Part shown: piece by piece, positions 7,193 to 49,674 of the stretch
Layout of the letters: every line of letters starts with the position of its first letter
Position numbering within the stretch: the first letter of the stretch is position 1
Assembly: GCA_028015205.1 (NCBI GenBank)
Contig: CM051521.1
Coordinates: 121,280,614 to 121,344,613 of the forward strand
Reading direction: 5' to 3'
DNA length: 64,000 bases
From: Mytilisepta virgata
Taxonomy: Eukaryota > Mollusca > Bivalvia > Mytilida > Mytilidae
The notes under the pieces: generated by a model
The model's input: the letters and a program-made list of their open reading frames with translations, nothing else
Database searches by the model: none
Told to the model about the DNA's origin: nothing
Made by a program: the position numbers and the translations under genes

Positions 7193-7239
7193 AGTAGTAT
7201 ATGGGCACAGGCAAAGTCGTATTTGAGGAGGAGGTGCCG

Positions 7240-7530
7240 GAAGTGACGTCAACCGGAAATGACGTCACAGGAAGTGGCGTAACCGAAACCGGAAGTCACG
7301 TGACCGGAACCGGAAGTATCGGAAGTGGTTTGCGCGCATGCGCAACCGGAAGTAGTGGTTTTTCGCGCCATTTGTTGCCGGAAGTGACGTAAGTCACGTG
7401 CTAGGACCCGGATATGTCGTCTGCGCATGCGTGACCGGAACCGGAAGTACCCGGAAGTGATTTGCGCACATGCGCAACCGGAAGTGATGGAATTTCACAT
7501 GATTTGTTTACGGAAGTGACGCAAGTCACG
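7240..7530. promoter_or_regulatory. Dense ETS / CRE / E-box / NRF1-like motif cluster, left terminus
   Basis: Within 290 bp there are eight exact CCGGAAGT (ETS core) sites, two TGACGTCA (CRE), three CACGTG (E-box) and about three NRF1-type sites (CGCGCATGCGCA, TGCGCATGCGTG and a spaced version). These four motifs are the standard set of housekeeping CpG-rich promoters in animals. The region is much richer in CpG than its surroundings. It sits at the extreme end of the palindrome and recurs at the other end, so it belongs to the element. Whether it drives outward or inward transcription, or is a transposase-binding array, cannot be decided from sequence. Confidence 0.6.
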
Positions 7531-7539
7531 TGCCAGGAT

Positions 7540-10500
7540 GTGCCATGCTTGACCAGATTGAATTATCCGCCTTTTCCCGCACTTCTCGGTCGCCTCTGGA
7601 TCTTTCATCGGTCTGATACCCTCACTGTTATGTCGAAGTCCGAGAGTATACGTTTGGATTATCTCCCCTTATCCCGCTCTTTTCATCTGCGGGTGATGTT
7701 TTCTGTGAGGACCAAAGGTAGTATTGGATTATGTCCCCTTACCTCCACGTGATGCTGTCACCATTAGATCAATGGAGGAGTGTTCTTAGCAACGGCGGTC
7801 CATTTCTATGATGCCCTTCGTTTCTCTTGCTCCGTGCTGCTCATCGCTGCTCTTCTCTTGCTCATCGCTGCTCATCACTGCTCATTGCTGCTCATCTCTT
7901 GCTCATCGCTGCTCATTGCTGCTCATCTCTTGCTCAGTGCTGCTCATCGTTGCTCTTCTCTTGCTCATAGCTGCTCATCACTGCTCTTCTCTTGCTCATC
8001 GCTGCTCATTGCTGCTCTTCTCTTGCTCATCGCTGCTCATTGCTGCTCATCTCTTGCTCATCGCTGCTCATCACTGCTCTTCTCTTGCTCATCGCTGCTC
8101 ATTGCTGCTCTTCTCTTGCTCATCGCTGCTCATTGCTGCTCATCTCTTGCTCCGTGCTGCTCATCGCTACTCAGGACCTTACTCGCGTGCTCATTTCGCT
8201 CCTCCTGCTTGTCACTGTTCGTCATCGCTGTTCATCTCTTGATCCACCCTTTTCCCGCACTTCTCGGTCGTCTCTGGATCTTTCATCGGTCTCTAGGGTC
8301 TGATACTCTCATTGTTATGTCGAAGTCCGAGAGTATACGAAGTACACTATTGGATTATCTCCCCTTATCCCGCTCTTTTCATCTGCGGGTGATGTTTTCT
8401 GTGAGGACCAAAGGTAGGATTGGATTATGCCCCCTTACCTGCAAGTGATGCTGTCACCAATAGATCAATGGAGGGGTGGCCTTAGCAACTGCCTTAGCAA
8501 CGGCGGTCCATTTCTATGATGTACTTCGTTTCTCTTCTCTTGCTCCATCCCGCTCCTCGCTGCTCTTCTCTTGCTCCGTGCTGCTCATCGCTGCTCTTCT
8601 CTTGCTCATTGCTGCTCATCACTGCTCATTGCTGCTCATCACTGCTCATTGCTGCTCTTCTCTTGCTCATCGCTGCTCATCGCTGCTCATTGCTGCTCAT
8701 CGCTGCTCATTGCTGCTCATCGCTGCTCATTGCTGCTCATCGCTACTCAGGACCTTACTCGCGTGCTCATTTCGCTCCTGCTGCTTGTCACTGTTCGTCA
8801 TCGCTGTTCATCTCTTGATCCACCCTTTTCCCGCACTTCTCGGTCGTCTCTGGATCTTTCATCGGTCTCTAGGGTCTGATACTCTCACTGTTATGTCGAA
8901 GTCCGAGAGTATACGAAGTACACTATTGGATTATCTCCCCTTATCCCGCTCTTTTTTATCTGTGGGTGATGTTTTCTGTGAGGACCAACGGTAGGATTGG
9001 ATTATGTCCCCCTACCTCCAAGTGATGCTGTCACCAATGGAGGGGTGTCCTTAGCAACGGTGGTCCATTTCTATGATGCACTTCGTTTCTCTTCTCTTGC
9101 TCCATCCCGCTCCTCGCTGCTCATCGCTGTTCTTCTCTTGCTCATCGCTGCTCATCACTGCTCATTGCTGCTCATCTCTTGCTCATCACTGCTCATTGCT
9201 GCTCATCTCTTGCTCATCGCTGCTCATCTCTTGCTCATCGCTGCTCATTGCTGCTCTTCTCTTGCTCATCGCTGCTCATTGCTGCTCATCTCTTGCTCCG
9301 TGCTGCTCATCGCTACTCAGGACCTTACTCGCGTGCTCATTTCGCTCCTGCTGCTTGTCACTGTTCGTCATCGCTGTTCATCTCTTGATCCACCCTTTTC
9401 CCGCACTTCTCGGTCGTCTCTGGATCTTTCATCGGTCTCTAGGGTCTGATACTCTCATTGTTATGTCGAAGTCCGAGAGTATACGAAGTACACTATTGGA
9501 TTATCTCCCCTTATCCCGCTCTTTTCATCTGCGGGTGATGTTTTCTGTGAGGACCAAAGGTAGGATTGGATTATGCCCCCTTACCTGCAAGTGATGCTGT
9601 CACCAATAGATCAATGGAGGGGTGGCCTTAGCAACTGCCTTAGCAACGGCGGTCCATTTCTATGATGCACTTCGTTTCTCTTCTCTTGCTCCCATCCCGC
9701 TCCTCGCTGCTCTTCTCTTGCTCCGTGCTGCTCATCGCTGCTCTTCTCTTGCTCATCGCTGCTCATCACTGCTCATTGCTGCTCATCACTGCTCATTGCT
9801 GCTCATCGCTGCTCATTGCTGCTCATCGCTGCCCATTGCTGCTCATCGCTGCTCATTGCTGCTCATCGCTACTCAGGACCTTACTCGCGTGCTCATTTCG
9901 CTCCTGCTGCTTGTCACTGTTCGTCATCGCTGTTCATCTCTTGATCCACCCTTTTCCCGCACTTCTCGGTCGTCTCTGGATCTTTCATCGGTCTCTAGGG
10001 TCTGATACTCTCACTGTTATGTCGAAGTCCGAGAGTATACGAAGTACACTATTGGATTATCTCCCCTTATCCCGCTCTTTTCATCTGTGGGTGATGTTTT
10101 CTGTGAGGACCTACGGTAGGATTGGATTATGTCCCCCTACCTCCAAGTGATGTTGTCACCAATAGATCAATGGAGGGGTGTCCTTAGCAACTACCTTAGC
10201 AACGGCGGTCCATTTTATTGCACATCGCTGCTCATTGCTGCTCATCTCTTGCTCATCTCTGCTCATTGCTGCTCATCTCTTGCTCATCGCTGCTCACCAC
10301 TGCTCTTCTCTTGCTCATCGCTGCTCATCTCTTGCTCCGTGCTGCTCATTGCTGCTCATCTCTTGCTCTTTGCTGCTCATCGCTACTCAGGACCTTACTC
10401 GCGTGCTCATTTCGCTCCTGCTGTTTGTTGCTGTTCGTCATCGCTTATCTTCTCTTGCTCTTTGCTGCTCATCGCTACTCAGGACCTTACTCGCGTGCTC

Positions 10501-10790
10501 ATTTCGCTCCTGTTGCTTGTTGCTGTTCGTCATCGCTTATCTTTTCTTGCTCTTTGCTGTTCATCTCTACTCAGGACCTTACTCGGGTGCTCATTTCGCT
10601 CCTGCTGTTTGTTGCTGTTCGTCATCGCTGGTATTCTCTTGCTCTTTTCTGCTCATCGCTACTCAGGACCTTACTCGCGTGCTCATTTCGCTCCTGCTAC
10701 TTGTTGATGTTCGTCATCGCTGCTATTCTCTTGCTCTTTGCGGCTCATCTCTACTCAGGACCTTACTCGCGTGCTCATCTCAGTTTTGGG
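7540..10790. repeat. GCTCAT higher-order tandem array, left arm
   Basis: Short units of the type GCTCATCGCT / GCTCATTGCT / GCTCATCTCTT form runs about 200-300 bp long. These are separated by a conserved block of about 290 bp containing CCCGCACTTCTCGGTCG, a GTCGAAGTCCGAGAGTATAC phrase, a TGTGAGGACCAA phrase and CTTAGCAACGGCGGTCCATT. The block recurs near 7560, 8250, 8820, 9390 and 9950, giving higher-order units of about 560-690 bp. From about 10,370 to 10,790 a shorter unit around TACTCAGGACCTTACTCGCG takes over. All six-frame ORFs here (serine-, leucine- and cysteine-rich) are translations of the repeat and are not genes. Confidence 0.92.
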
Positions 10791-10864
10791 GCTTCTGCTG
10801 CTAGTGGTGGTCGATTGTCGTTATTCAAAGATTGGATCTGTGCGAGAGCACCCTTACATTCAGG

Positions 10865-11010
10865 TCATTTGAACGGCCACTCTGCATTTATCCAGGCTTG
10901 TGACTGGCTATCATAAGATAGGCTGCATCAATCCTCCTCAATTTATTAAGGCCACTCTGCATTTGTCTAGGCTTGTGACTGGCTATATATATGTTTAAAC
11001 ATATATAGGC
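10865..11010. repeat. Duplicated 36-bp phrase and short perfect palindrome, left arm
   Basis: GGCCACTCTGCATTT...GGCTTGTGACTGGCTAT occurs twice (about 10,874 and 10,949). The second copy runs into a perfect 22-bp palindrome at 10,986-11,007 centred on GTTTAAAC. The same layout is at about 37,685-37,815 in the right arm. It lies just beyond the 3-prime end of the ORF cassette, so a role in 3-prime end formation is possible. Confidence 0.7.
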
Positions 11011-11101
11011 TGCATTACCCTCCTTCCTTTTTTTTAATTTTTAATTTTTTTTTAAATATATTTTTTCTGTTTTTTTTTTGTAATATGTTCCAATTCCTCC
11101 G

Positions 11102-11344
11102 TCACATAGAGTCATTGCTGTCTTCAACTGGTGGTGGGTCGTAGTCGTTCAATACACGGTTAAGCAGATATTTTCGTTTTTCTACGGCACATTCCAATGA
11201 TTCTTTTGATTCGTAGTCTTCCTCTTCTCTCAGGCGTTTAGCTGTTTTCTTGATCTTTCTATGTACGGGGTCTTTATTCATGTCTTGATGCCAGGACAGA
11301 CAGTCCGAGGTAATGCTTTCGTATTTCGTCTCTGTATGTGTCAA
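11102..11344 (-). CDS. ORF C, charged C-terminal segment (left arm), unknown function
   Basis: The frame begins with a TTG rather than ATG and overlaps the end of ORF B by 71 nt. It encodes a highly charged, probably helical segment (DMNKDPVHRKIKKTAKRL, then EEEDYESKESLECAVEKRK) ending in an acidic tail. It is best read as the C-terminal part of the ORF B protein in a shifted frame: DCLSWHQDMN follows naturally after the ORF B helix. The same frame is open in the right arm to a stop at 37,586-37,588. I do not recognise the family. Confidence 0.4.
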   Translation of the reverse strand: MTHTETKYESITSDCLSWHQDMNKDPVHRKIKKTAKRLREEEDYESKESLECAVEKRKYLLNRVLNDYDPPPVEDSNDSM

Positions 11345-11678
11345 ACATGTCTCTATATGCTGCCAAGCGTGCCTCGTTTTCTTCCATGCCGGCTTCGACT
11401 AGTTCGTTTACTTTCTGTGAGTATTCCGATTGATGTACTTGAAATGATCTATTCAAAATGACTTCCCATGGAGACTGTTCGCATTGCTCTTCGGAGTCTT
11501 CGTTGGATTCATGGTCACTGCTTTGTTCCGATTCCTCGTTATCGGCTTCTGTGGTGGTGTCTGAGACTGAATCACTATAGTCTGTTGAATCCTCTTCCAT
11601 ACCGTGTGCATTCTTTTTGTGTTGCACTAGGTTGAAGTTTCGCTTGGACTGATATCCACATATGTCACAGGTATACAT
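11274..11678 (-). CDS. ORF B, C2H2 zinc finger protein (left arm)
   Basis: The 134-residue product starts at once with a single C2H2 zinc finger: YTCDICGYQSKRNFNLVQH, then KKNAH (C-x2-C-x12-H-x4-H). An acidic, serine-rich stretch follows (about residues 28-68), then a predicted helix (about 75-120). A DNA- or RNA-binding role is plausible for the finger, but the function is unknown. The right-arm copy (37,020-37,412) is nearly identical up to a 5-nt difference near its end. The gene points away from the palindrome centre and follows ORF A by 24 nt. No host gene family is recognised. Confidence 0.65.
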   Translation of the reverse strand: MYTCDICGYQSKRNFNLVQHKKNAHGMEEDSTDYSDSVSDTTTEADNEESEQSSDHESNEDSEEQCEQSPWEVILNRSFQVHQSEYSQKVNELVEAGMEENEARLAAYRDMFDTYRDEIRKHYLGLSVLASRHE

Positions 11679-11702
11679 TTAAGACGTCTTTCTTTCCTGG
11701 GA

Positions 11703-12134
11703 TTAAATAGTAGAATGAGCTCCGGTCGTCCTGCAAGTGCTTATATTAGCTAGAGGTTCCTCAACGGCTTGTTGATTCATACACAAACGTTTGGCAAAGT
11801 ATTCGTTTCGAGATTGTTGCAGTTCAGATTTCACTTTTCTGATGAGCTCTCTACTAAGTCTTGTCCACTCGTTGTCAATCCTTCTACACCCCTTGCAGAC
11901 ATTCATGTTTTTGTAGAATTCCCCAAAGCTCTTGTTCATTTGACACTTTGTACATTTCTTGTTTGGATCCACTTTGCTGGGTCCTCCACTTGTGTTGTCC
12001 AGCCGTTTGGTTCTCTCCACTTTGGTTGGAAGTATTTTCCTTTTCATTTCTGGTTTTGCTTTGGTCTTTGAAAGATCCACAGGTATTAAGTATCTAGCAG
12101 GAACCAATAAACCGAGAGGCGTTTTCGATTCCAT
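11703..12134 (-). CDS. ORF A, CxxC zinc-ribbon protein (left arm)
   Basis: The 143-residue product has a basic N-terminal region (about 1-58). A four-cysteine module follows: CTKCQMNKSFGEFYKNM, then NVCKGC, i.e. C-x2-C...FYK...C-x2-C. A charged helix rich in R, K and E comes next (about 95-130). The C-x2-C/FYK/C-x2-C layout resembles small zinc ribbons in phage and large DNA virus proteins; that is resemblance, not assignment. The ATG at 12,134 is conserved in the right arm (19,467). Here the frame ends at TAA (ATT TAA). In the right arm one base differs (ATT GAA), so that copy reads 8 codons further to a stop touching ORF B. Confidence 0.65.
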   Translation of the reverse strand: MESKTPLGLLVPARYLIPVDLSKTKAKPEMKRKILPTKVERTKRLDNTSGGPSKVDPNKKCTKCQMNKSFGEFYKNMNVCKGCRRIDNEWTRLSRELIRKVKSELQQSRNEYFAKRLCMNQQAVEEPLANISTCRTTGAHSTI

Positions 12135-12194
12135 TGATACGTGTGTGTTGTTTGACGGTCTTCAAACAACTGACAAAATTAAACATAACCTCTG

Positions 12195-12844
12195 ATTATA
12201 TTTTCGTTAAAAGCTTTCCATTGGTGTCATGGTGACGAAGATTGCTTTTTTCTATTCATTCAGACCTCACGGTTCGCTGTTCGTTGTTCGTTGTTGTTGC
12301 TGGTGTGCCGGGGAGAAGGTGGGTTAGAAATAAATACTAAGGGTTCATTCCTTGTATTGCACATGGTAGATCTCCTTAGTTGAAATTTGGCTTCCTATTT
12401 CGGTATTTTTGGTTGAGTACTTCTTGTTTAATATAAGTTTGGTTTTTGGTCTTCCAAAGGTTTCGGTTTTAATGCTGCTGATGAGAGATAACTCCTTGAA
12501 ATGCGTCGTATATAGCATAGTATAAATTTACAATATCTAATATTAGTATCTTTGGATTGTTATTTTCTCACTATTTCGTTATAAATCACCTCTTGGTCTC
12601 GTTGAAGTTACGATGAACATCAAAGATGGCTGCCTCCATGTAACGCCGACCTGAAAGAGAGCACCCTTATGAAATAGAAGTTTTAGAGTCTTTCCGGACG
12701 GGAACGAATGTTCTCGGTCTCGTTGATGTTACGATGGACATCAAAGATGGCTGCGCCCAAGTAACGCGAACCTAAAAGAGAGCACACTAATGAAATGAAA
12801 ACTTCAGAGTCTTTCCGGACGGGAACGAACATTTACGGATTTCT
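12195..12844. other. Upstream spacer with two 126-bp repeats (left arm)
   Basis: No coding sequence is seen. Two tandem copies of about 126 bp (about 12,590-12,712 and 12,713-12,835) share GGTCTCGTTGAAGTTACGATG, ATCAAAGATGGCTGC and GTCTTTCCGGACGGGAACGA. The right arm has both (about 19,005-19,250). The segment lies between the cassette start and the palindrome centre, so it should hold the cassette promoter if there is one. Confidence 0.7.
12326..12562. other. Segment present only in the left arm
   Basis: The left arm reads GGGGAGAAGGTGGGTT, then about 238 bp, then TTCTCACTATTTCGTTATAA. The right arm (19,261-19,310, reverse complement) joins these flanks directly. The extra piece is AT-rich without recognisable ends. 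Either a small insertion in the left arm or a deletion in the right arm explains it. Confidence 0.75.
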
Positions 12845-12950
12845 GTCCTAACCCTAACTCGAGTCCTAACCCCAACCCTAACTCTAATCCTAACCCTAAA
12901 CCTAACTCTAACCCTGAGCCTAGTCCTACCTCTAACCCTTATCGTAGGTC
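12845..12950 (+). repeat. Degenerate telomere-type CCCTAA repeats, left of the loop
   Basis: About 15 variant units are seen: CCTAACCCTAACTCGAGTCC, then CCCCAACCCTAACTCTAATC and so on. TTAGGG is the usual animal and mollusc telomere unit. The run is matched on the other side of the loop at 18,921-18,995 (split by the BEL insertion), reading TTAGGG-like on the plus strand. Confidence 0.85.
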
Positions 12951-13103
12951 TGTCTGGTACTCCTACTCTAATCGCTCATACCCCACCGTCGGTAGTTCAC
13001 TGGTGCGAGCGTGACAAACATGAGGCAAACAGTCACGCTTGCTTAGGTGAACCACCGACGGTGGGGTATGAGCGATTAGAGTAGGAGTACCAGACAGACC
13101 TAC
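12944..13103. other. Central hairpin of the palindrome with 16-nt loop
   Basis: The stem strand 12,944-13,015 pairs with 13,032-13,103 (for example ACTCCTACTCTAATCGCTCA with its inverse). The 20 bp nearest the loop are less perfect. The unpaired loop is 13,016-13,031 (AAACATGAGGCAAACA). This is the symmetry centre of the whole 11-kb element. Confidence 0.92.
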
Positions 13104-13127
13104 GATAAGGGTTAGAGGCAGGACTAG

Positions 13128-13333
13128 TGTTGTGAATAGTTTCTTTATTTCTAAGTTTCAATTATCTTTTATTTATGAACGAAAGACAGTAACGTTATTT
13201 CCCGCAATTTGTAACGTAATAATTGCTACGTCGCCACCGGAAGCGGCAACTCTTGTATAGAACGTCTAGAAACAAAACGTATAGAAAGTTGATCGTCTTA
13301 TAGTTGTTTTTCACCGCTCAACATTCCCTAATA
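13128..13333 (+). repeat. BEL 5-prime LTR and adjoining primer-binding site
   Basis: It starts TGTTGTGAATAG and ends CCCTAATA. By eye one base differs from the 3-prime LTR (ACATTCCC against ACATACCC). The sequence right after it, TTTGGTGCCGTGACC (13,334-13,348), occupies the primer-binding site position. The primer tRNA was not assigned. Confidence 0.93.
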
Positions 13334-13355
13334 TTTGGTGCCGTGACCAAACGGA

Positions 13356-13823
13356 ATGAGTACGAAGAAGTTAAAATCGCTTAGAGCCGCACATCGAGGA
13401 GTAGTGACAAGACATTTGAACAAAGTGAATGGAGATTCGGAAGATTTATTACGTGAACACAACGTGAATGGACTTACCACGCTCAGAAATTTGATTCAGA
13501 ACAAGGAAAAGACGATATTGGAATTGGATGCACAGATTCTCGACGAAATATCGGAAGATGAACATGAAGAAGAAATCACAGAAGCTGACAGGTATACTTT
13601 CGATATCCAAATGGCCATTTCCAAACTGTCCATAATCATCAACAATGCAAACACTGCCGTTCCCCCACTCATAAACTCAACTAATCCCACAGTAACCCCG
13701 CAGAGTAACTTTCACGCATCAGAGCTAAACCCGCATGCCACGGACTTCGTATCCTCGCACACTTCCGCCGCCACTAGCCACATGTGCACACATCCCCATA
13801 TAGTTTCCCGCAAGCTACTATGA
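13356..13823 (+). pseudogene. BEL Gag N-terminal part
   Basis: The 155-residue frame starts 22 nt after the 5-prime LTR with MSTKKLKSLRAAHRG, a helical and charged region typical of BEL Gag N termini. It ends because of a frameshift around 13,784-13,823. The protein continues in another frame from there. Gag would form the particle that packages the element RNA. Confidence 0.8.
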
Positions 13824-15256
13824 GCACCTCGGGATCCGTATGCACAAATGCCAGCACATTTCACAAATTGCCCAAGCTCAATTTGCCTTCGTTTGGCGGA
13901 AATATGATAGATTGGCAGCCGTTTTGGGACTCCTTCTCAGCAGCCGTACACGAAAATTTAGCATTGAATGATGTCCAAAAATTCAATTACCTCAAATCAC
14001 AACTCTACGGAGAAGCTATTCAATGTATCGCCGGCTTACAAATTACCAACACGAATTACGCTCAAGCCCTACAAGTTCTCAAACGCAGATTTGGTCAGCC
14101 GCATAAAATCATTGAAACCTATATGCAAAAACTTATCAGTTTACCAAGCCCTACGTCTGATATTACGGAACTGAAGAATTTCTACGATGGTATGGAAAAT
14201 TACATTAGAGGTCTAGAAAGTATGGGTCAAACATCAGAATCTTACGGAAACCTATTAGTACCGATCATCATGAACAAAATTCCAGAAATGATCAAAGAAA
14301 ACTTAATCAGAGCACACGGAAGTGACCAATGGACTTTACCGCTACTACGAGAAGCAATTGAAAAGGAAATCACGATCAAACAAGCCAGTAAATCAGCTAA
14401 TTCCTACAATGCAGTGCAAACCACAGGGTTCACACCTACGTCCGCCTTTATAGCTAATACAAAGAGAAACTCCACAAAACCTAACCAAAGTATCAACAAA
14501 AAGCCATGCGTATTTTGTAAAGATATCCACGCCCCTACAGAATGCACTAAAGTCAAAGCTATAGAACAACGGAAACAGATCGTAAAAGAGAAGCAGCTAT
14601 GTTTCAACTGTCTCGGGAACCATAAAATAGCCAACTGTAAATCCGAGAAAACATGTAAACACTGTCCGGGAAAGAAACATCACACCAGCATATGCACAAA
14701 AGGAGACTCCGAGAAGAAAACTCAGGAACGACAACAGAAGTCTGATACAGCTGATACCACATGTATAACTACAATAGCTAATATACACTCAACCACGTCA
14801 ATGGCAAAAAGGTCACATGTACTTTTGAAGACCTCAATAACACAAGTATCGTCCGACGGTAAGCAGTTTGTCACAGCAAACATCTTATTTGATGAAGGAG
14901 CTCAGCGAAGTTTTATAACACAAGAGATGGCAAATAACTTGAATTTGAAACCACACAAAACAGAATCAGTTGCTATTTCTGGTTTTGGAGAGTCAAACAA
15001 GAAAGTAAGATACTTGCGAGTCACCACCGTCTACATGAAATCTCAAAGTAATGAACTGATACCAATAGATGTACTAATAGTTCCCAAGATCGCCGAGCCA
15101 GTCCAGACATATGCAAGAAATTCAGCGAATTTATCGTACCTTAATGGTTTGAAATTAGCTCATCCGACGACAGAAGATGGAGAATTTGACGTCGCAATTT
15201 TAGTAGGAGCTGACTACTTTTGGGACATTGTCGAGGACCAAATTATCAGAGGATGA
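13784..15256 (+). pseudogene. BEL Gag C-terminal part and protease
   Basis: Residues 25-170 carry the DUF1759-type Gag domain (KLNLPSFGG, WQPFWDSF, FNYLKSQLYGEA). Residues 240-305 hold three cysteine/histidine zinc clusters (CVFCKDIHAPTEC, CFNCLGNHKIANC, CKHCPGKKHHTSIC). From about residue 365 is the DUF1758-type aspartic protease with LFDEGAQRSFI. The frame ends at 15,256 just after GADYFWDIV. The remaining conserved GP-x-A-x2-S-x-x-GYLLSGP stretch is in the frame of the next ORF, so a frameshift separates them. Confidence 0.9.
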
Positions 15257-18653: not shown

Positions 18654-18709
18654 ACAGTTAAATGTGTTTATTAATCATGGACTTTAATTGCATTTTTGCG
18701 GCCCCAGAA

Positions 18710-18915: not shown

Positions 18916-18920
18916 ACTAG

Positions 18921-29835: not shown

Positions 29836-29883
29836 TTCAGAAATTATTTTTATATGTAGATTATCAAGTATATTTATATCATC

Positions 29884-30327
29884 ATGTCGGATTATTTGTC
29901 AAAGGAGGAGATTGACAACATAGTATCTGTATTTAAGGATATGGACATCAAACCATCAGCACAGACACCAGATGACTTCAAAGCGTGGATGGAAGAATAC
30001 AAAGATGATGAATTATGGGATGCATACTTACCCAGAATATCTACGTTTGCCGGAGATGGAAACACTGGAACACCATACGATATGTGGAGATACGAGGTGC
30101 AATGTCTTATAAGAACTGGTAACACACATGATACTATCAAAGCAGCCATCAGACGATCATTACGAGGTCATGCTAGCAAGATACCTATGCGACTTGGCAC
30201 AGATGCAACAATTGATGACATCATGGATAAAATGGACAGCATCTATGGATCAGTATTCCCAGCAGAAGCTTTACTTGGACAGTTTTACACCGCCAGACAG
30301 AATGATGATGAAGATGTTGCTTCATGA
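29884..30327 (+). pseudogene. Gypsy Gag, N-terminal part
   Basis: The frame starts MSDYLSKEEIDNIVSVF and includes DMWRYEVQCLIRTG and IRRSLRGHASKIPMRLG, the Gypsy/Arc-type capsid (retrotrans_gag-like) region. The last codon before the stop is at 30,324 and TGA follows at 30,325-30,327. The same frame stays open afterwards through 30,400, with the rest of the capsid. A single base change probably made the stop. Read-through as a natural Gag/Pol device is less likely, because the stop is inside the capsid domain. Confidence 0.85.
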
Positions 30328-33123
30328 GGTTGCAGGCTAGAAGAGATATTAAGCCAGGCAAAGAACAGAAGAAACATCACAGATGAACATATCAACGATA
30401 TGCTCACCTCCAAGTTCTTTGAAGGATTAAGACCGGAACTGAAGAATGTCGCCCGATATAAGAAGGATACCATCAACGACGTTCAGATGTTATTACGAGC
30501 ATTGAGAGAAATCGAAAATGAGCACAACTTGAAACCAGTACTGAAGAAGAAGTCATCTCCAGTAAAACAAGCAACAACGTCTACTGAGAATAAACAGATT
30601 CAACAACTCACAGCATTGGTGAAACAACTCTCACAGGACATCAAGTCTTTGAAGAACGATAGAGGAATGGTGCAACCAACTAGTAACATCAGATGGATAC
30701 AACGTAAAACACCACAGCGTCCAGACGAAACCATCATACATCGATCATTAATCAAGAACAAACGACAGAGAAAACATCAGTCAGAGATTATTTGTTGGCG
30801 ATGTCGACAACCTGGACATATCGCTGCAGGCTGTAACGTCCGCTTAGATCATTCCAGAAAAACAGAAAGATCATTGAATCTCCAACAAGACTTTATTATG
30901 GAGCATAATACAGATCTACACAATGCTAAAATACCAGGCCTTCTTGGTTCACCAAATGAAGTTTCAGTTACTGTTAACGGCATCATAACAACAGGGCTGT
31001 TAGATACTGGGTCAACTGTATCGACGATAAGTGAGGGATTCTACAATCATCATCTCTCCAATATACCTCTACAATCACTCAGCTACTTACTGAACATCGA
31101 ATGTGCCGATGGACAGCAGTTACCCTACAAAGGTTACATCGAGGCAGACTTACAACTTCATGGAACTGCAGCTAAGAATACATACCCGGGACTTTTCCTA
31201 ATTATTCCAGACAGCGATTACCACAATAATGTTCCTGTCCTAATTGGTACCAATATCCTGGCTGAAGTAATGAAAGATGTCAAAAATCAGCATGGACAAC
31301 GATTTCTCCAAGACGCCAAACTTCAGACACCATACTACTTAGCATTTAGATGTATGGCACTTAGAGACAAGGAGTTAGAAAGACAACATAACAGACTGGC
31401 GTTGATCAAGTCAGCTGAGACCAGGCCGATTACCATACAAGCAAATTCAGAAATTGTCATACAAGGTTATATGGACAAGATGTTACCATATCCAACGACA
31501 ATATCCATGCTCCATGTTACATCGAATTCAGCGATTCCCAATGACCTAGATATAGTACCATCAGTTGTGACATATGACCAGGATAAATTAGAAAACATCC
31601 CTGTTCACATATCCAACATAACTACCAGGACAGTTACCATCGCTCCTAAAGCCATTCTATGTGAACTTCAACCTGTATCAGTACAACAAGAACAAGTTAA
31701 ACCAGAGGATGAAGTATTCAGTGACATCTTCAAAGACATCAACCTTCCTGATGATACACTTACAGCTGACGAACTTGTCAAAGGAAAGAACCTGATACAT
31801 AGATACAACGACATATTTTCAAAGAACGATACAGATATTGGTTACACGTCGTTGGTAAAACATCGAATAGACCTCACAGATGATACTCCATTCAAACAAC
31901 GACACAGACGCATACCACCATCAATGCTTGAAGAAGTTAGAAATCATTTACAACAACTGTTATCAGCAGGCATCATTAGACGTTCACATTCACCATGGTC
32001 ATCCAACGTCGTCCTTGTTAGAAAGAAAGATGGCAAGCTGCGCATGTGCGTTGATTATCGTCAGCTTAATCAACGAACCATCAAAGATTCATATGCACTT
32101 CCACGTATAGATGAAATCTTGGACTCCCTTGGTGGCAACAAAATTTTTACAGTCCTTGACATGAAGTCTGGATATCATCAGCTGGACATTGAAAAAGAGC
32201 ATAAGCAGCGTACTGCTTTTACAGTGGGACCACTAGGATTCTTCGAGTTCAACCGGATGCCATTTGGGTTAGCAAATTCACCTGCTACTTACCAGAGATT
32301 AATGGAAGAATGCCTGGGCGACTTGCACACCAGAATCTGTTTTATCTACTTGGATGACCTTATCATCTTCTCCAGAACATTAGATGAACATCTAGACAGA
32401 CTTGAAAAAGTATTTCAACGCCTACGAGAAGTCGGACTTAAGTTGTGTCCAAAGAAATGTTCATTTTTCCAGCGCAAAGTCAAATACATTGGACATATTG
32501 TGTCAGAAAATGGAGTGGAGCCCGATCCTGAGAAAATCGACAAAGTAGTTAATTGGCCGAAACCAAGTACAGCAGAAGAAGTCCGCAAATTCCTAGGTTT
32601 CGTCGGCTACTATAGAAAATTTATTAAAGATTTCTCCAAAATAGCTCGACCCCTCACAGACTTAATGCCACCTACCGGAAGAAAAATAAAAGGAAAAAAA
32701 ACCAAGAAAGAGCAGAAACCTTGGCACTGGAATCAGGAACAGGAAACAGCATTCCAACGACTTAAGCAACACCTTTTAACACCACCAATACTTAGTTTTC
32801 CTGACTATGAACACCCATTTGAGCTCCATACTGATGCCTCTAGTAATGGACTTGGGGCAGTTCTTTACCAGACACAAGATGGAAAACAAAGAGTCATAGC
32901 ATATGCCAGTAGAGGACTGTCGAAATCAGAGAAAAATTATCCTGTCCACAAGCAAGAGTTCCTGGCATTAAAATGGGCTGTCACCGAGAAGTTTAAAGAT
33001 TATCTGTACGGCCAGAAGTTCACAGTACTCACAGATAATAATCCTGACTTATGCACTGTCATCTGCAAAATTAGATGCCACCGGACATCGTTGGCTAGCG
33101 GCATTGGCATCTTTCAACTTTAA
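30328..33123 (+). pseudogene. Gypsy Gag C-term, protease, RT and RNase H
   Basis: Open in frame from 30,328; the first ATG is at 30,400. Counting from that ATG: capsid end with FFEGLRPELKNVARY (about residue 4), CCHC knuckle CWRCRQPGHIAAGC (about 133), protease GLLDTGSTVSTIS (about 199), RT with RMCVDYRQLNQRT (about 548), MPFGLANSPATYQ, and the catalytic box IYLDDLIIFS (about 649). RNase H has HTDASSNGLGAVLYQ (about 811) and LTDNNP (about 877). After LTDNNP two bases appear to be missing, so the frame ends at 33,123 in unrelated residues. Pol continues in another frame. Confidence 0.93.
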
Positions 33124-35245
33124 CATCATCTATAGACCGGGAAAACACAATGCTGATGCCGATGGTTTATCACGTCTACCTGCCACCAACAGAAATGATA
33201 TACCAAAAGAGTCAGTAAAGGCGGTATGTAATACAGTCCAACCTGTTGCTTACATCGAATCCTTGACAGACCATCAACAAGTAATAGATGATATGTCAGA
33301 AATGCTTCAAGAACAGAAAATCGATATCCGAGAAGCACAGAGAAAAGATCCTATTGTCCGGTATTGGATTGAATGTGTCAATAATAGAAAACCTAGAAAA
33401 GAAGACTTGCCACCGTCTCCATACCATAATTTGCTGTACAGTAACTACGACAAACTTAGAGTAAAGAATGGTGTACTATACAGAAAAACAACTATCAATG
33501 ATGAGAATAAGGACCAATTAGTATTGCCAACATTCAAGGTCTCAACTGTACTAAGGTCGCTTCATAACAACATGGGCCACCAAGGTCGAGACAGAACTAC
33601 CTCTTTAGTTAAAGACCGATTTTTCTGGTATGGCATGACAAAGGACATAGAGCAGTGGATCCAGAAGTGTCCCAGATGTATCTGGCGTAAAACACCAACG
33701 AACGATAGAGCTCCACTGAACAGCATACGGACTACACAGCCAATGGAAATCGTATGCATGGACTTTCTGAAGTTGGAAGTTTCCAAAGGAGGATTCCAAT
33801 ACGTATTGGTGATCACTGATCACTTCACCCGATACGCACAAGCCATTCCTACGAAGAATACAACTGCAAGAACAACGGCAGAGGCATTTTTCAAGAACTT
33901 CGTGGTGCACTATGGACTTCCTCAAAGAATCCACTCAGATCAAGGTGCCAACTTCGAAAGTCGCCTTATCAAAGAGTTATGTGAGATCACTGGCATCCAG
34001 AAATCCAGAACCACGCCATACCACCCACAAGGGAATGGACAATGCGAGAGTTTTAACCGAACATTGATCAACATGCTTGGTACTCTCGAGAAAGATCAGA
34101 AACGAGACTGGAAATCCTACATCGGTCCCATTGTCCATGCTTACAACTCCACCAAACATGACAGTACAGGATACTCACCATTTCTTCTAATGTTTGGAAG
34201 AGAGGCACGACTGCCAGCTGATTTAGCGTTTGGACTAGAGAACCAGAAAGACCGGAAGACCACAACTAAGTACATTGAAGACCTGAAAGAAAAGTTAAGA
34301 AAATCGTACCAGCTAGCATCATTAGCTGCAGAAAAGACACAAGGAAAACAGAAAAGAACATACGACAAAAGAGTTAAAGGAGCCATACTGGACAAAGGTG
34401 ACAAAGTGCTTGTGAAGATCTTGGCACATGAAGGAACACACAAGCTTGAAGATAAATGGGAAGAAGAATCGTATAAAGTTTTGGACCAACCAAATACAGA
34501 AGTTCCAGTCTACGTTGTACAGAAAGAGAGTGGTCATGGTAGAAAAAGAACTCTACATCGCAACCTTCTTCTCCCAATTGGAAGCATCAACGAGGAACAA
34601 AATGAAGGGCCCACACCCCGTCCAAGACCAGTTCCTCCACCAAGAAGAAAGAAGACTGTAACACCAGAGATCGACGTTACGCCAGTTGAAACCCCAGCGG
34701 ACATTGACACAGAAGATGACGAAGAATCTTTGGTGTATGTTGTTACAGAGCAGCCTTACCAGAATACGCAACAAGATGTCATGACCCAAGGTGATGATGA
34801 ACCAGAACTTGTTGCCGAAGAGGCTATTGTTCCTGGTAACGCTGATGACGATCAGGGCCGCACCAAGGAGCAAGACTCTGAATCGAAGAAGGACGCTTCT
34901 ATATCCGATCAATCGGAAAGTTCAGAGCCACACAAAATACCAGATGCTGAAGCCAGTGGTATAGCAGAGGATGCTTCTCAACTTGAAGATGACGATGATA
35001 ATGCTGGTAAAGAGGATGAACAAAATACTGAACCACAGCCAAGACGATCCACCCGAGTCAAGACGTCCACAGCAACGACCAGATACAAAGACTTTGAAGT
35101 TCCACCCATCTCCAAATCTGCACAACCAGATTGGATGGTCCGTGTTGATTATTTGAGATCAGCAGCTACCTCTGGATTATTTGACAACTTAAATAAAGAT
35201 GTCTCCAGAGCCATGTTGAAGCTGATTACCAAATCAGATTATTAA
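33104..35245 (+). pseudogene. Gypsy integrase and acidic C-terminal tail
   Basis: It begins with the end of RNase H and the connection (FNFNIIYRPGKHNADADGLS). The zinc domain has HNNMGHQGRDRTTSLVKDRF and KCPRC (about 156-192). The core has aspartates in CMDFLKL (about 218) and HSDQGANFES (about 276), and the glutamate in QGNGQCESFNRT (about 312). A GPY-like region follows, then a long acidic, proline- and glutamate-rich tail (about 500-660) and RRSTRVKTST. No chromodomain is recognised. The frame itself is intact but out of frame with the RT part. Confidence 0.92.
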
Positions 35246-35363
35246 TTTTATATTTATTTCAAATTTTCGTTCATTTCCATTTGACGAGGACATTTTTTTC
35301 CTCACACGGGGGAAAATATTGTAGTCTGATGTCGTGGAAGACATTCTCGCAGCAGGGGGAGAA
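35246..35363 (+). other. Gypsy 3-prime non-coding part and polypurine tract
   Basis: GGGGGAAAATATTG (near 35,309) and AGCAGGGGGAGAA (35,351-35,363) are purine-rich. The second touches the 3-prime LTR and is the expected plus-strand primer. Confidence 0.75.
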
Positions 35364-36759
35364 TGTGGCAGTATGGATTTTCTACATATTTATTAAAATA
35401 CATTTTATTATTTTATTTCAGTCTTTGCATGATTAAACAGTCGTACACATTAATTTATATTTCATTACTTCATTTATTTAACGTTTGTGTGTATTTTTTC
35501 TTATCAGCCATCCTTGATTTAATTTCGTAACGGTTTCTATCTATTCAACTCATTAAGTAATTTAATTGTCACACCTGTAAGTTTACCTTTTGTGGTCTAT
35601 TCTTATTGGTCAGAAAGAGGGACTATAGTTTTGATACCGACAAGATGGGTGACATTTTTGTCTGTAATGAAGTTTAATTCAGTTTAGTAGTTTCATTTTT
35701 GAGAAACCAGTTAGTCAGTTTCATAGCCATTTTGCCGGTTTTTGGCATTTAGTATACAGATGGAACGTTTGTGCTCATAGTGCATCTGGAACATCAGATT
35801 CTGTATTAATGGTAAGGGAACATACATTTTCTTTGTGTCGTATGAGAGACGGATGCATTGACTGCAAAGCTATTTTCTGCCCTTTTAGTAAGTATGCCCT
35901 TGGTCCGATGTTTATGTTAGGGGTACGATAGTTATTTATGAATCTGAGAATATTTGATTTGAAAGCGTAGTTTGAATGTAGAAAGGGAGATGTTCGAATG
36001 GGTTTGAGAGTAGCCTTGACCTTTGTTATAAATCTACATGTATGACATCACATGACCTTTGCGTCGTTATTTTCATATATGAGTATCAATTTCATCTTAG
36101 AATCACTTTTTTTATAATAAGCCGAAAATATGAATATGAATATTGTATGCTTATTAAGGAATTCATATTTTCTTAGACCTTAGTGTTTATTATTGTATAT
36201 TATTTGCAGGACCCATCGTTATCCTGTGGTTTGAGAAATGAGACCATATTGCATACTGGTTAGATTACTGTTGATTTGATATTGTATATAACCCGGTCCC
36301 ATTGATTGGTAAGGGTCCTATTTATTGTATTACTTATGTATTGATTGTTTATTTTACAATATCTTCTGTATTTTTTCCAGTTGATATACTTTATTGTAAT
36401 TAGAATGCATTCAGAATTATGCATTTTGCCTTTTGTATAAGAAAAGGATGTAAATGGATTCATACATTCATTTAATAGGATAGATTTATTTAATAGTGTA
36501 TTCATTATTGAACCCGTTATTAATTGTACTAATTTGATATGATTTATCGGATACATGTACATTTTGTAACAGTTTATCATAATCGTTTCCTATATATATA
36601 CTTATAATTTGAGCTGTGATAGAAAATAATTTACTTAATATAATATGTATTGTTATTTCAGGGTTATTTTATATAGTTTATTATGTTATCCTGAATAAAC
36701 TGAAGCAGAATGAACCCTAGCGTTATAGTCATATATGGCCAGAAATTAAGACTGCTTCA
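35364..36759 (+). repeat. Gypsy 3-prime LTR
   Basis: TGTGGCAGTATGG to ACTGCTTCA, 1,396 bp. TGAA follows. Small differences from the 5-prime copy include a 12-nt insertion near 36,456 and isolated base changes. Confidence 0.93.
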
Positions 36760-37019
36760 TGAACAAGAGCTTTGGGGAATTCTACAAAAACATGAATGTC
36801 TGCAAGGGGTGTAGAAGGATTGACAACGAGTGGACAAGACTTAATAGAGAGCTCATCAGAAAAGTGAAATCTGAACTGCAACTATCTCGAAACGTATACT
36901 TTGCCAAACGTTTGTGTATGAATCAACAAGCCGTTGAGGAACCTCTAGCTAATATAAGCACTTGCAGGACGACCGGAGCTCATTCTACTATTGAATCCCA
37001 GGAAAGAAAGACGTCTTAA
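36760..37019 (+). pseudogene. ORF A, right arm, C-terminal half (after Gypsy)
   Basis: It resumes at NKSFGEFYKNM and carries the second cysteine pair (CKGC), the charged helix and the tail. It reads through HSTIESQERKTS and stops with TAA at 37,017-37,019. The left-arm copy stops at HSTI. Three other residue changes are visible (S to N, Q to L, E to V in the helix). It is disrupted by the 17-kb Gypsy insertion. Confidence 0.8.
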
Positions 37020-37412
37020 ATGTATACCTGTGACATATGTGGATATCAGTCCAAGCGAAACTTCAACCTAGTGCAACACAAAAAGAATGCACACGGTATG
37101 GAAGAGGATTCAACAGACTATAGTGATTCAGTCTCAGACACCACCACAGAAGCCGATAACGAGGAATCGGAACAAAGCAGTGACCATGAATCCAACGAAG
37201 ACTCCGAAGAGCAATGCGAACAGTCTCCATGGGAAGTCATTTTGAAGTCATTTCAAGTACATCAATCGGAATACTCACAGAAAGTAAACGAACTAGTCGA
37301 AGCCGGCATGGAAGAAAACGAGGCACGCTTGGCAGCAAATAGAGACATGTTTGACACATACAGAGACGAAATACGATTACCTCGGACTGTCTGTCCTGGC
37401 ATCAAGACATGA
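37020..37412 (+). CDS. ORF B, C2H2 zinc finger protein (right arm)
   Basis: The 130-residue copy of the left-arm protein keeps an unchanged zinc finger (CDICGYQSK...H...H). Its ATG touches the ORF A stop (TAAATG). Near the end, ATACGATTACC replaces ATACGAAAGCATTACC, so the tail reads LPRTVCPGIKT and ends at 37,412. With ORF A cut by Gypsy, this copy depends on a new promoter; the upstream Gypsy 3-prime LTR is in the same direction and could supply one. Confidence 0.6.
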   Translation: MYTCDICGYQSKRNFNLVQHKKNAHGMEEDSTDYSDSVSDTTTEADNEESEQSSDHESNEDSEEQCEQSPWEVILKSFQVHQSEYSQKVNELVEAGMEENEARLAANRDMFDTYRDEIRLPRTVCPGIKT

Positions 37413-37588
37413 ATAAAGACCCCGTACATAGAAAGATCAAGAAAACGGCTAAACGCCTGAGAGAAGAGGAAGACTACGAATCAAAAGAATCATTGGAATA
37501 TGCCGTAGAAAAACGAAAATATCTGCTTAACCGTGTATTGAACGACTACGACCCACCACCAGTTGAAGACAGCAATGACTCTATGTGA
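37365..37588 (+). CDS. ORF C-like charged segment (right arm)
   Basis: This is open in a frame shifted from ORF B. It reads DCLSWHQDMNKDPVHRKIKK, then the E-rich stretch and the acidic tail to TGA at 37,586-37,588. It lacks a clear start codon. It is likely the C terminus of the ORF B protein, displaced by a frameshift. Confidence 0.35.
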
Positions 37589-37830
37589 CGGAGGAATTGG
37601 AACATATTACAAAAAAAACAGAAAAAATATATATATAAAAAAATTCAAAATTAAAAAAAAAAGAAAGGAGGGTAATGCAGCCTATATATGTTTAAACATA
37701 TATATAGCCAGTCACAAGCCTGGACAAATGCAGAGTGGCCTTAATAAATTGAGGAGGATTGATGCAGCCTATCTTATGATAGCCAGTCACAAGCCTGGAT
37801 AAATGCAGAGTGGCCGTTCAAATGACCTGA
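37589..37830 (-). other. Right-arm spacer: poly-A stretch, palindrome and duplicated phrase
   Basis: An A-rich stretch at 37,608-37,665 is followed by the inverse of the left-arm palindrome around GTTTAAAC and two copies of ATAGCCAGTCACAAGCCTGG. Not coding. Confidence 0.7.
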
Positions 37831-37899
37831 ATGTAAGGGTGCTCTCGCACAGATCCAATCTTTGAATAACGACAATCGACCACCACTAGCAGCAGAAGC

Positions 37900-40560
37900 C
37901 CCAAAACTGAGATGAGCACGCGAGTAAGGTCCTGAGTAGAGATGAGCCGCAAAGAGCAAGAGAATAGCAGCGATGACGAACATCAACAAGTAGCAGGAGC
38001 GAAATGAGCACGCGAGTAAGGTCCTGAGTAGCGATGAGCAGCAAAGAGCAAGAGAATACCAGCGATGACGAACAGCAACAAACAGCAGGAGCGAAATGAG
38101 CACCCGAGTAAGGTCCTGAGTAGAGATGAACAGCAAAGAGCAAGAAAAGATAAGCGATGACGAACAGCAACAAGCAACAGGAGCGAAATGAGCACGCGAG
38201 TAAGGTCCTGAGTAGCGATGAGCGGCAAAGAGCAAGAGAAGATAAGCGATGACGAACAGCAACAAACAGCAGGAGCGAAATGAGCACGCGAGTAAGGTCC
38301 TGAGTAGCGATGAGCAGCAAAGAGCAAGAGATGAGCAGCAATGCGCAGCACGGAGCAAGAGATGAGCAGCGATGAGCAAGAGAAGAGCAGTGGTGAGCAG
38401 CGATGAGCAAGAGATGAGCAGCAATGAGCAGCGATGAGCAAGAGATGAGCAGCAATGAGCAGCGATAAGCAACAATGAGCAGCGATGTGCAATGAAATGG
38501 ACCGCCGTTGCTAAGGCAGTTGCTAAGGACACCCCTCCATTGATCTATTGGTGACAGCATCACTTGGAGGTAGGGGGACATAATCCAATCCTACCGTTGG
38601 TCCTCACAGAAAACATCACCCACAGATGAAAAGAGCGGGATAAGGGGAGATAATCCAATAGTGTACTTCGTATACTCTCGGACCTCGACATAACAGTGAG
38701 AGTATCAGACCCTAGAGACCGATGAAAGATCCAGAGACGACCGAGAAGTGCGGGAAAAGGGTGGATCAAGAGATGAACAGCGATGACGAACAGTGACAAG
38801 CAGCAGGAGCGAAATGAGCACGCTAGTAAGGTCCTGAGTAGCGATGAGCAGCAAAGAGCAAGAGATGAGCAACAATGAGCAGCGATGAGCAAGAGATGAA
38901 CAGCGATGAGCAGCGATGAGCAAGAAATGAGCAGCAATGAGCAGTGATGAGCTAGAGATGAGCAGCAATGAGCAGTGATGAGCAGCGATGAGCAAGAGAA
39001 GAGCAGCGATGAGCAGCACGGAGCAAGAGAAGAGCAGAGAGGAGCGGGATGGAGCAAGAGAAGAGAAACGAAGTGCATCATAGAAATGGACCGCCGTTGC
39101 TAAGGCAGTTGCTAAGGACACCCCTCCATTGATCTATTGGTGACAGCATCACTTGCAGGTAAGGGGGCATAATCCAATCCTACCTTTGGTCCTCACAGAA
39201 AACATCACCACAGATGAAAAGAGCGGGATAAGGGGAGATAATCCAATAGTGTACTTCGTATACTCTCGGACTTCGACATAACAGTGAGAGTATCAGACCC
39301 TAGAGACCGATGAAAGATCCAGAGACGACCGAGAAGTGCGGGAAAAGGGTGGATCAAGAGATGAACAGCGATGACGAACAGTGACAAGCAGCAGGAGTGA
39401 AATGAGCACGCGAGTAAGGTCCTGAGTAGCGATGAGCAGCACGGAGCAAGAGATGAGCAGCAATGAACAGCGATGAGCAAGAGAAGAGCAGAAATGAGCA
39501 GCGATGAGCAAGAGAAGAGCAGAAATGAGCAGCGATGAGCAAGAGATGAGCAGCGATGAGCAAGAGATGAGCAGCAATGAGCAGTGATGAGCAAGAGATG
39601 AGCAGCAATGAGCAGTGATGAGCAAGAGAAGAGCAGCGATGAGCAGCACGGAGCAAGAGAAGAGCAGCGAGGAGCGGGATGGAGCAAGAGAAGAGAAACG
39701 AAGTGCATCATAGAAATGGACCGCCGTTGCTAAGGCGGTTGCTAAGGACACCCCTCCATTGGTGACAGCATCACTTGCAGGTAAGGTGGCATAATCCAAT
39801 CCTACCTTTGGTGCTCACAGAAAACATCACCCGCAGATGAAAAGAGCGGGATAAGGGGAGATAATCCAATAGGGTACTTCGTATACTCTCGGACTTCGAC
39901 ATAACAGTGAGAGTATCAGACCCTAGAGACCGATGAAAGATCCAGAGACGACCGAGAAGTGCGGGAAAAGGGTGGATCAAGAGATGAACAGCGATGACGA
40001 ACAGTGACAAGCAGCAGGAGCGAAATGAGCACGCGAGTAAGGTCCTGAGTAGCGATGAGCAGCACGGAGCAAGAGATGAGCAGCAATGAGCAGCGATGAG
40101 CAAGAGAAGAGCAGCAATGAGCAGCGATGAGCAAGAGAAGAGCAGCAATGAGCAGCGATGAGCAAGAGATGAGCAGCGATGAGCAAGAGATGAGCAGCAA
40201 TGAGCAGTGATGAGCAAGAGATGAGCAGCAATGAGCAGTGATGAGCAGCGATGAGCAAGAGATGAGCAAGAGATGAGCAACAATGAGCAGCGATGAGCAA
40301 GAGAAGAGCAGCAATGAGCAGCGATGAGCAAGAGAAGAGCAGTGATGAGCAGCGATGAGCAAGAGAAGAGCAACGATGAGCAGCACTGAGCAAGAGATGA
40401 GCAGCAATGAGCAGCGATGAGCAAGAAATGAACAGCAATGAGCAGTGATGAGCAGCGATGAGCAAGAGAAGAGCAGCGATGAGCAGCACGGAGCAAGAGA
40501 AACGAAGAGCATCATAGAAATGGACCGCCGTTCTAAGAACACTCCTCCATTGATCTAATG
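37900..40560. repeat. GCTCAT higher-order tandem array, right arm
   Basis: This is the reverse complement of the left-arm array. ATGAGCAGCGATGAGCAAGA runs alternate with the 290-bp block (near 38,480-38,780, 39,085-39,360, 39,715-39,980 and 40,520-40,760). It has fewer or shorter higher-order units than the left arm. Long minus-strand frames here are repeat translations. Confidence 0.92.
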
Positions 40561-40789
40561 GTGACAGCATCACGTGGAGGTAAGGGGACATAATCCAATC
40601 CTACCTTTGGTCCTCACAGAAAACATCACCCCCAGATGAAAAGAGCGGGATAAGGGGAGATAATCCAAACGTATACTCTCGGACTTCGACATAACAGTGA
40701 GGGTATCAGACCGATGAAAGATCCAGAGACGATCGAGAAGTGCGGGAAAAGGGGGATAATTCAATCTAGTCAAGCATGGCACATCCTGG

Positions 40790-41110
40790 CACGTGACTTG
40801 CGTCACTTCCGTAAACAAATCATGTGAAATTCCATCACTTCCGGTTGCGCATGTGCGCAAATCACTTCCGGGTACTGCCGGTTCCGGTCACGCATGCGCT
40901 GACGACATATCCGGGTCCTAGCACGTGACTTACGTCACTTCCGGCAACAAATGGCGCGAAAAACCACTACTTCCGGTTGCGCATGCGCGCAAACCACTTC
41001 CGGGTACTTCCGGTTCCGGTCACGTGACTTCCGGTTCCGGTTACGCTACTCCTGTGACGTCATTTCCGGTTGACGTTACTTCCGGCACCTCCTCCTCAAA
41101 TACGACTTTG
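40790..41110. promoter_or_regulatory. Dense ETS / CRE / E-box / NRF1-like motif cluster, right terminus
   Basis: This is the reverse complement of 7240-7530: repeated ACTTCCGG, CACGTG, TGACGTCA-like and GCGCATGCGC sites in the same order. There are small differences (for example GCTGACGACA against CGTCTGCGCA spacing). Confidence 0.6.
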
Positions 41111-41129
41111 CCTGTGCCCATATACTGCT

Positions 41130-49625: not shown

Positions 49626-49628
<3 letters not shown>

Positions 49629-49672: not shown

Positions 49673-49674
<2 letters not shown>

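Follow-up and report, generated by a model that had tools for sequence, protein, structure and literature searches.

We analyzed a 64,000-nucleotide stretch of the genome of the bivalve Mytilisepta virgata (assembly GCA_028015205.1, contig CM051521.1), which we will call the window. It contains a large palindrome, flanked by a 6-bp target site duplication (TSD), that is probably a non-autonomous member of the Polinton/Maverick transposons. Comparing the window with itself revealed two inverse arms that are broken up by two long terminal repeat (LTR) retrotransposons. To rebuild the palindrome, we cut out both inserts, each together with one copy of its own TSD (13128-18920 with ACTAG, and 19667-36763 with TGAA). 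Without the inserts, the element is a near-perfect palindrome of 11,047 nt, which is far beyond chance. Its parts are:

7187-7192, no strand: left copy of the TSD, TATTTG (from the sequence)
7193-13015, + strand: arm A, 5,823 nt (from the self-comparison and the arm alignment)
7193-7924, + strand: outer end, which begins with (AGT)2 and has its homologue in the PolB-side (left) end of E8, a coding Polinton described below (L023 303-1061)
7822-10781, + strand: tandem-repeat arrays with GCTCATCGCT-type units
10359-10778, + strand: 92-bp tandem units inside the array region
12565-12846, + strand: inner segment containing two copies of a 121-bp unit, common to the palindromic copies and not found in E8
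12847-12939, + strand: degenerate telomere-like (CCTAAC)n array
13016-13031, no strand: 16-nt loop, AAACATGAGGCAAACA
13032-13127, - strand: inner piece of arm B
13128-18915, + strand: nested BEL/Pao LTR retrotransposon with TSD ACTAG (DUF1759, Pao peptidase)
18921-19666, - strand: middle piece of arm B
19667-36759, + strand: nested Ty3/Gypsy LTR retrotransposon with TSD TGAA (reverse transcriptase, RNase H, integrase)
36764-41129, - strand: outer piece of arm B
41130-41135, no strand: right copy of the TSD, TATTTG (from the sequence)

The three pieces of arm B add up to 5,208 nt. A global alignment of arm A with arm B has 4,971 matches, 126 mismatches, and 837 gap columns, which is 97.5% identity without gaps. 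The divergence of the arms is 2.5% overall, or 2.1% if tandem repeats are excluded. Arm B lacks two longer segments, 403 nt of the tandem repeats and 240 nt at 12324, which make the biggest gaps. The termini are AGTAGTATATGGGC and AGCAGTATATGGGC, which are of the AGYAGT type (AGTAGT on the left and AGCAGT on the right). The original prediction, which was made from the sequence alone, described inverse arms of 5.8 and 5.2 kb, a 16-nt loop, and TATTTG flanks. All of these were confirmed once the inserts were left out and the arms were realigned.

To find related elements, we compared a 408-bp end query to the same 1.03-Gb assembly. Forty of the 3,365 candidates were scored, and these gave 48 matches, including 8 convergent pairs of ends that span roughly 10-34 kb. 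One pair is the window element (WIN), and we named the others E1-E7. E2-E7 are palindromes with arms of about 4.5-8.2 kb (7.2 and 8.2 kb in E2, 5.6 and 5.2 kb in E3, 7.1 and 8.2 kb in E4, about 7.5 kb in E5, 7.2 and 6.9 kb in E6, and 4.5 and 5.2 kb in E7). The best high-scoring segment pairs between arms were 99.05% identical over 5,557 columns in E2, 97.3% over 3,653 in E3, 98.2% over 5,292 in E4, 99.6% over 7,152 in E5, and 99.84% over 5,754 in E6. For E7, the segment pairs were 89.9% identical over 3,176 columns or 97.2% over 1,904. E1 has kept both ends, and its interior is interrupted. In all 8 copies that were read at both ends, the 6-bp duplications are perfect, as judged by eye (TATTTG in WIN, CTCGCT in E1, GAAATC in E2, GTCATC in E3, GTGTAC in E4, TAGGGT in E5, AATATG in E6, and GATCAA in E7). 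AGTAGT termini are present on both sides of E1-E8. The expectation of further copies with AG-type ends and 6-bp duplications was therefore borne out by E1-E7.

One of three single ends (C34) belongs to the coding element E8, and the other two (C92 and C3:30.2 Mb) bear the small gene cassette that we describe below. For ten more single ends, we sampled 4 kb each from further inward. In five (L030, L033, L035, L036, and L037), the centre is a palindrome or a disrupted one, three match the coding middle of E8 (L031, L032, and L038), and L029 and L034 were assigned to neither group.

We also looked for palindromes made from the right end of the Polinton. Among the 40 of 462 right-end candidates that were scored, the only close outward pairs were two in an array at C3:37.14-37.18 Mb, and the middles of its units (3 kb each) are not palindromic past 171 bp. 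This array (C3:37140751-37180533, L059-L064) has two Polinton-like units, about 9 kb apart, with right-end sequence on both sides. The middles of the units are direct repeats of each other (99.85% identity), and a single AGCGAT duplication flanks the whole array. Separately, C5:10890300-10932800 (L031 and L032) has two nearly alike coding Polinton stretches in opposite orientation, with ends about 26 kb apart, which is perhaps a large inverted duplication.

The ends of the family are shared with E8 (loci L023 and L024), which has terminal inverted repeats (TIRs) of about 362 bp, AGTAGT ends, and the TSD CGCGGG. E8 encodes PC4, an A32/FtsK-type ATPase (E = 8e-5, slightly under the Pfam cutoff), an integrase core (Pfam E = 1.2e-14) with a chromodomain, a PolB-like frame, and, near its right end, a protein with CARD and PC4 domains (L024 5524-6423). 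The match to an adenovirus-type protease is weak (E = 0.0038, below the cutoff), and two jelly-roll candidates (L024 2348-3136 and 3366-4847) had no match in Pfam. The PolB-like frame (1,401 codons, with a zinc finger) had no match to a Pfam polymerase. The PolB frame includes VDANALYL, NSSYGK, and MDTDS (as printed for E5), which we take to be polymerase motifs. Of 7,993 sequences scored against residues 850-1474 of the E5 frame, 1,697 were relatives at E ≤ 0.001, and many of the 120 relatives listed carry PF03175. Relatives of this PolB occur in amphioxus, echinoderms, and other animals. When the PolB open reading frame (ORF) was compared to PDB, the best 60 of 220 matches hit its zinc-finger part.

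Starting from the left end, the window element and E8 are 84.0% identical over 771 columns, so a coding Polinton does share the first 300 bp of the ends, as had been suggested. Arm A matches the left end of E8 as far as L023 1061, while the TIR of E8 stops at L023 664. The pieces from both ends of E1-E7 align with arm A beyond this TIR limit, and we also compared the left pieces of E2-E7 with E8 itself. These comparisons indicate that both outer ends of the family's copies are the PolB-side end of a Polinton. In E5, the arm matches E8 from the left end through PolB (95.7% identity over 4,445 columns), and each arm has a stop-free PolB frame of 1,474 codons (99.6% identical to each other). The ratio of nonsynonymous to synonymous substitution rates (dN/dS) for PolB in E5 versus E8 is about 0.19. 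E2, E4, and E6 contain an inverted segment that matches the PC4 region of E8, as well as a remnant of PolB (within residues 204-286).

Outside the nested retrotransposons, the frames that we tested in the window copy include no PolB, RVE integrase, packaging ATPase, or cysteine protease. As PolB was not found in this copy, though both arms of E5 and E8 have it, we file the window copy as a non-autonomous derivative and not as an autonomous Polinton. The earlier statement that no Polinton gene is seen is correct for the window copy but not for the family. When we queried the assembly with the integrase and scored 116 of 2,999 candidates, there were 120 matches. Fifty-six of them cover nearly the full length with identities of at least 94%, and 48 of the 56 are stop-free, so the genome offers candidate enzymes that could move these elements in trans. 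From the ends and the duplications, we infer that this integrase moves the palindromic elements. The integrase query had no match in viral contigs, and the outer end had no match in phage records. Overall, the original proposal of an arms-only Polinton derivative is supported by E8 with its shared ends, by the 6-bp duplication, and by the 56 integrase matches. The window element is one copy of a real, large family of fold-back Polintons.

The centres of the palindromes are conserved. The window element, E2, E3, E4, E6, and E7 all have the loop AAACAYGAGGCAAACA, and telomere-like CCTAAC arrays adjoin the loop's stem in all six. Except in E2, the mostly paired stem also has an asymmetric bubble (TGGTGC versus CTTAGG). 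We checked the stem across ±800 nt of the centre. E2 and E4 have a perfect stem over at least 764 nt beyond the innermost 64-80 nt, E6 over at least 507 nt, E3 over at least 140 nt, and E7 over at least 76 nt. E5 and L037 lack the common loop and share a different, longer centre, which in E5 consists of telomere-like repeats.

A 26-letter pattern (the 16-nt loop plus 5 bp of stem on each side) occurs at 261 places in the genome, while the reversed control occurs at none. We sampled 20 places stepwise from the first 100 of the 261 (contigs C1-C9). In 13 of the 20, there are arms of at least 236 nt at 93.6-99.6% identity. Another 6 have inverted arm sequence on both sides and are damaged near the centre: five have a one-sided deletion there, and L052 has junctions on both sides. 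The remaining place (L051) is flanked on one side by unrelated DNA. We compared 25 centres that had sufficient flank (these 20 plus E2, E4, E7, L036, and the window). The asymmetry runs the same way in 21 of them, while 3 are symmetric (in both directions) and 1 is inverted.

We also built a tree of the arms from 1.1 kb of the cassette, in which E1, E7, C92, and C3b are represented by one arm only. In all five elements with both arms usable, the two arms are sisters, with support of 0.999 for the window, 0.972 for E4, 0.921 for E3, 0.882 for E2, and 0.762 for E6. The cassettes of loop-bearing elements differ by up to about 10%. These elements have the asymmetric centre in common, so the palindrome probably predates their divergence. 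Nevertheless, the two arms of one element resemble each other most, which implies that they have been re-equalised in each lineage.

Each arm of the window element carries, outward from the centre, ORF1, ORF2, and two motifs that resemble twister-P1 ribozymes:

11703-12134, - strand: ORF1, a small protein with a CxxC/CxxC pattern like that of zinc-binding proteins
11274-11675, - strand: ORF2, with one C2H2-like zinc finger (below the Pfam cutoff) and an acidic region
11102-11395, - strand: ORF3, a frame equivalent to the C-terminal portion of the ORF2 that has 191 amino acids in copies elsewhere
10949-11021, - strand: twister-P1-like motif, first copy in arm A (E = 6.1e-11, 56.1 bits)
10874-10934, - strand: twister-P1-like motif, second copy in arm A (E = 7.9e-10, 52.3 bits)
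37669-37741, + strand: twister-P1-like motif in arm B (E = 8e-13, 62.2 bits)
37756-37816, + strand: second twister-P1-like motif in arm B (E = 5.7e-10, 52.3 bits)

In arm B, ORF1 is split by the Gypsy insertion. ORF2 of arm A has 134 amino acids, with its frame broken before the C-terminus, and it has 191 amino acids in E3_B, E7_B, and C3b. Among these three longer copies, dN/dS for ORF2 is 0.23, 0.32, and 0.92 (from small counts). Relative to them, it is 0.18-0.29 for the window's frame and 0.29-0.41 for the shorter frames of E2, E4, and E6 (also from small counts). ORF1 and ORF2 had no homologue in the protein database, and none of ORF1, ORF2, and ORF3 had a homologue in viral contigs.

All of the twister-P1-like matches fall below Rfam's gathering threshold of 67.2 bits for this family (RF03160); the best scores 65.7 bits. 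A search of nine other loci gave 13 matches, with E values down to 1.2e-12. Twelve are in six cassette-bearing loci and one is in E8 (L024 5409-5465), where it sits between the protease and CARD genes. There was no match in L017 (E5) or L023. We aligned 15 copies (13 of them distinct, and all related) and assigned pairs using what we take to be the geometry of the twister's pseudoknots. In the helices and pseudoknots, 94.5% of cells are paired, as compared to at most 40.6% for slid controls, and none of 500 shuffles reached that level. Thirteen cells are changed on both sides (0/500 shuffles). By two other counts, pairs with a double change (3) and pair types (7), the copies do no better than shuffles (314/500 and 359/500). 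In the T1 pseudoknot, the middle pair is A-U, whereas the letters of Rfam's consensus point to C-G. The presence of these motifs in coding and non-coding members suggests that RNA self-cleavage is part of the family's way of life.

We think it likely that these elements are palindromic, non-autonomous Polintons, each an inverted dimer of PolB-side ends joined at a conserved imperfect hairpin, which are copied round the hairpin and integrated in trans. A protein-primed PolB (the element's own or one acting in trans) would start at the outer end and copy the arm. Synthesis would then turn round the hairpin and come back, giving each new copy two identical arms. The Polinton integrase would insert the duplex with a 6-bp stagger, and the arms would diverge by drift after insertion. 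Copying a strand round the hairpin would equalise the arms at once, as might be expected of a PolB that is started by a terminal protein on a fold-back template.

Several observations weigh against this proposal. We infer replication through the hairpin from the sequences, and arm-to-arm gene conversion in the chromosome could likewise keep the arms alike. About 80 nt at the centre stay asymmetric in 21 of 25 copies even though the adjoining arms are nearly identical, so homogenisation stops short of the tip, and the simple model gives no account of this un-equalised part. The evidence from the tree is weak for E6: E6_B is 99.3% identical to both E6_A and E2_A, and E2, E4, and E6 share about 99% identity with one another. 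ORF2 is broken in both arms of the window element and in E1, E3_A, and C92, and ORF1 is without clear purifying selection (dN/dS of 0.06-2.7). E5 lacks the common loop. Finally, neither the cassette nor the inner segment nor the loop was found in E8, which leaves this sub-lineage without a direct progenitor.

The main rival needs no hairpin replication: the elements would be ordinary non-autonomous Polintons whose inverted repeats are very long, and conversion between the arms in the chromosome would keep them alike. Conversion would account for kilobases of near-identical arms in several copies, and for centres that are symmetric in both directions (E2 and L050 versus L041 and L035). The ages of the inserts in the window argue otherwise. 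The BEL/Pao insert's LTRs (206 bp) have 1 mismatch (99.5% identity), and the Gypsy insert's LTRs (1.4 kb) have 9 mismatches at 1,383 aligned sites (99.35% identity without gaps). This divergence (0.5% on 206 sites and 0.65% on 1,383) is less than the 2.1-2.5% between the arms, which fits the inserts having landed later in an older palindrome, and it suggests that the arms reflect time since insertion rather than ongoing conversion. The asymmetric centre has also been left unconverted in 21 of the 25 copies. We consider this rival unlikely.

It is less plausible still that coding Polintons have repeatedly suffered independent snap-back accidents, giving defective inverted dimers without any palindromic lineage. 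There are at least two types of centre (the common loop and that of E5 and L037), and E5 does resemble a snap-back of the coding element's left end. But one loop pattern is found at 261 places, with cassettes that are up to about 10% different, and the loop is accompanied by a cassette that was not found in E8. The data favour common descent of the loop and the cassette across many insertions.

A separate class of foldback transposon, outside of the Polintons, had been offered as another possibility, and the window alone (no recognised Polinton gene in the frames tested, and a cassette of its own) might point that way. The ends, the length of the duplication, the segment that matches PC4, and PolB with its remnants tie the family to Polintons, and E5 and E8 contradict a separate class, which seems very improbable and is not needed, although the gene cassette, the tandem ribozyme motifs, and the centre are present here and were not found in E8. 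An assembly artefact is just as improbable: palindromes are a known artefact of assemblies and libraries, but the arms are 2.5% apart, the two inserts sit at different points along the palindrome, and the structure recurs with other flanks and duplications.

The mobile form of these elements could also be a half-length linear DNA whose two ends differ. We offer this tentatively and would not bet on it. One end would be a Polinton end primed by protein, and the other a hairpin "telomere" that is covalently closed and made of the telomere-like repeats and the conserved, bubbled loop. The integrated palindromes would be the replication dimers of this molecule. If this is true, then the family is a mobile element that joins protein-primed and hairpin replication of ends, in a lineage of hundreds of copies, and the lineage's twister ribozymes would cut its transcripts.

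The window has other repeats as well. The nested 17-kb Gypsy element includes 17.7 copies of a 135-bp satellite (22770-25163). A 59-bp satellite forms inverted, facing arrays at 48379-53103 and 56763-59473, which may be another long inverted-repeat element, and there are arrays of an AT-rich palindromic repeat at 48581-49159 and 56072-56460. A remnant of a reverse-transcriptase gene (RVT_1) lies at 4841-5647, about 1.5 kb from the insertion site.

Parts of this family resemble known systems. Vertebrate Mavericks have 6-bp TSDs and (AGT)2 termini, and the intact ones have TIRs of 46-1,447 bp (PMC8097293); Polintons/Mavericks are likewise described as having long TIRs with 6-bp TSDs (PMC8969392). 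The family shares the 6-bp TSD and the AG-type termini, and its coding relative E8 has PolB, integrase, ATPase, and a weak match to the protease. Unlike in Polintons, almost all of the element is inverted repeat, and both ends are PolB-side. The window copy also lacks the coding set and a coding interior between TIRs, both of which E8 has. Fold-back (FB) transposons have very long inverted repeats that are rich in tandem repeats, as these elements do, but the TSD of Drosophila FB is 9 bp, while the elements described here have 6-bp TSDs and Polinton ends. The telomeres of parvoviruses and poxviruses are imperfect hairpins with an unpaired bubble at the turn-around point. Here, the bubbled hairpin is instead the centre of an integrated palindrome.

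There are also parallels among protein-primed linear plasmids. A deletion derivative of kalilo is reportedly a hairpin-type linear plasmid (Vierula and Bertrand 1992, from its title, as cited in PMC11071308), and a hairpin plasmid is known from yeast pGKL1, although none of the literature records listed was on it. These are linear DNAs that depend on PolB and form hairpins or inverted dimers, as we propose here. But they are extrachromosomal, while this family is dispersed, integrated, and multi-copy, with TSDs. As for the ribozymes, truncated twisters are mentioned for RTE retrotransposons (PMC7761336), while the twister-like motifs in this Polinton family are of the P1 type, with two per arm in cassette-bearing elements and one in E8. 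Neither palindromic Polintons nor twisters in Polintons are described in the literature records listed (titles and the openings of abstracts), or in the passages found in PMC6431247, PMC2836005, PMC11071296, PMC11071308, PMC4028283, PMC8969392, PMC7761336, and PMC8097293.

This family may bear on how Polintons are copied. Polintons connect transposons with linear plasmids and DNA viruses, and to our knowledge the copying of their DNA in animals has hardly ever been observed. A family whose arms have repeatedly been equalised would be a natural record of that copying, and it suggests protein-primed synthesis round a hairpin. The family offers many insertions with which to test this idea, and it shows that a large palindrome is able to spread as mobile DNA.

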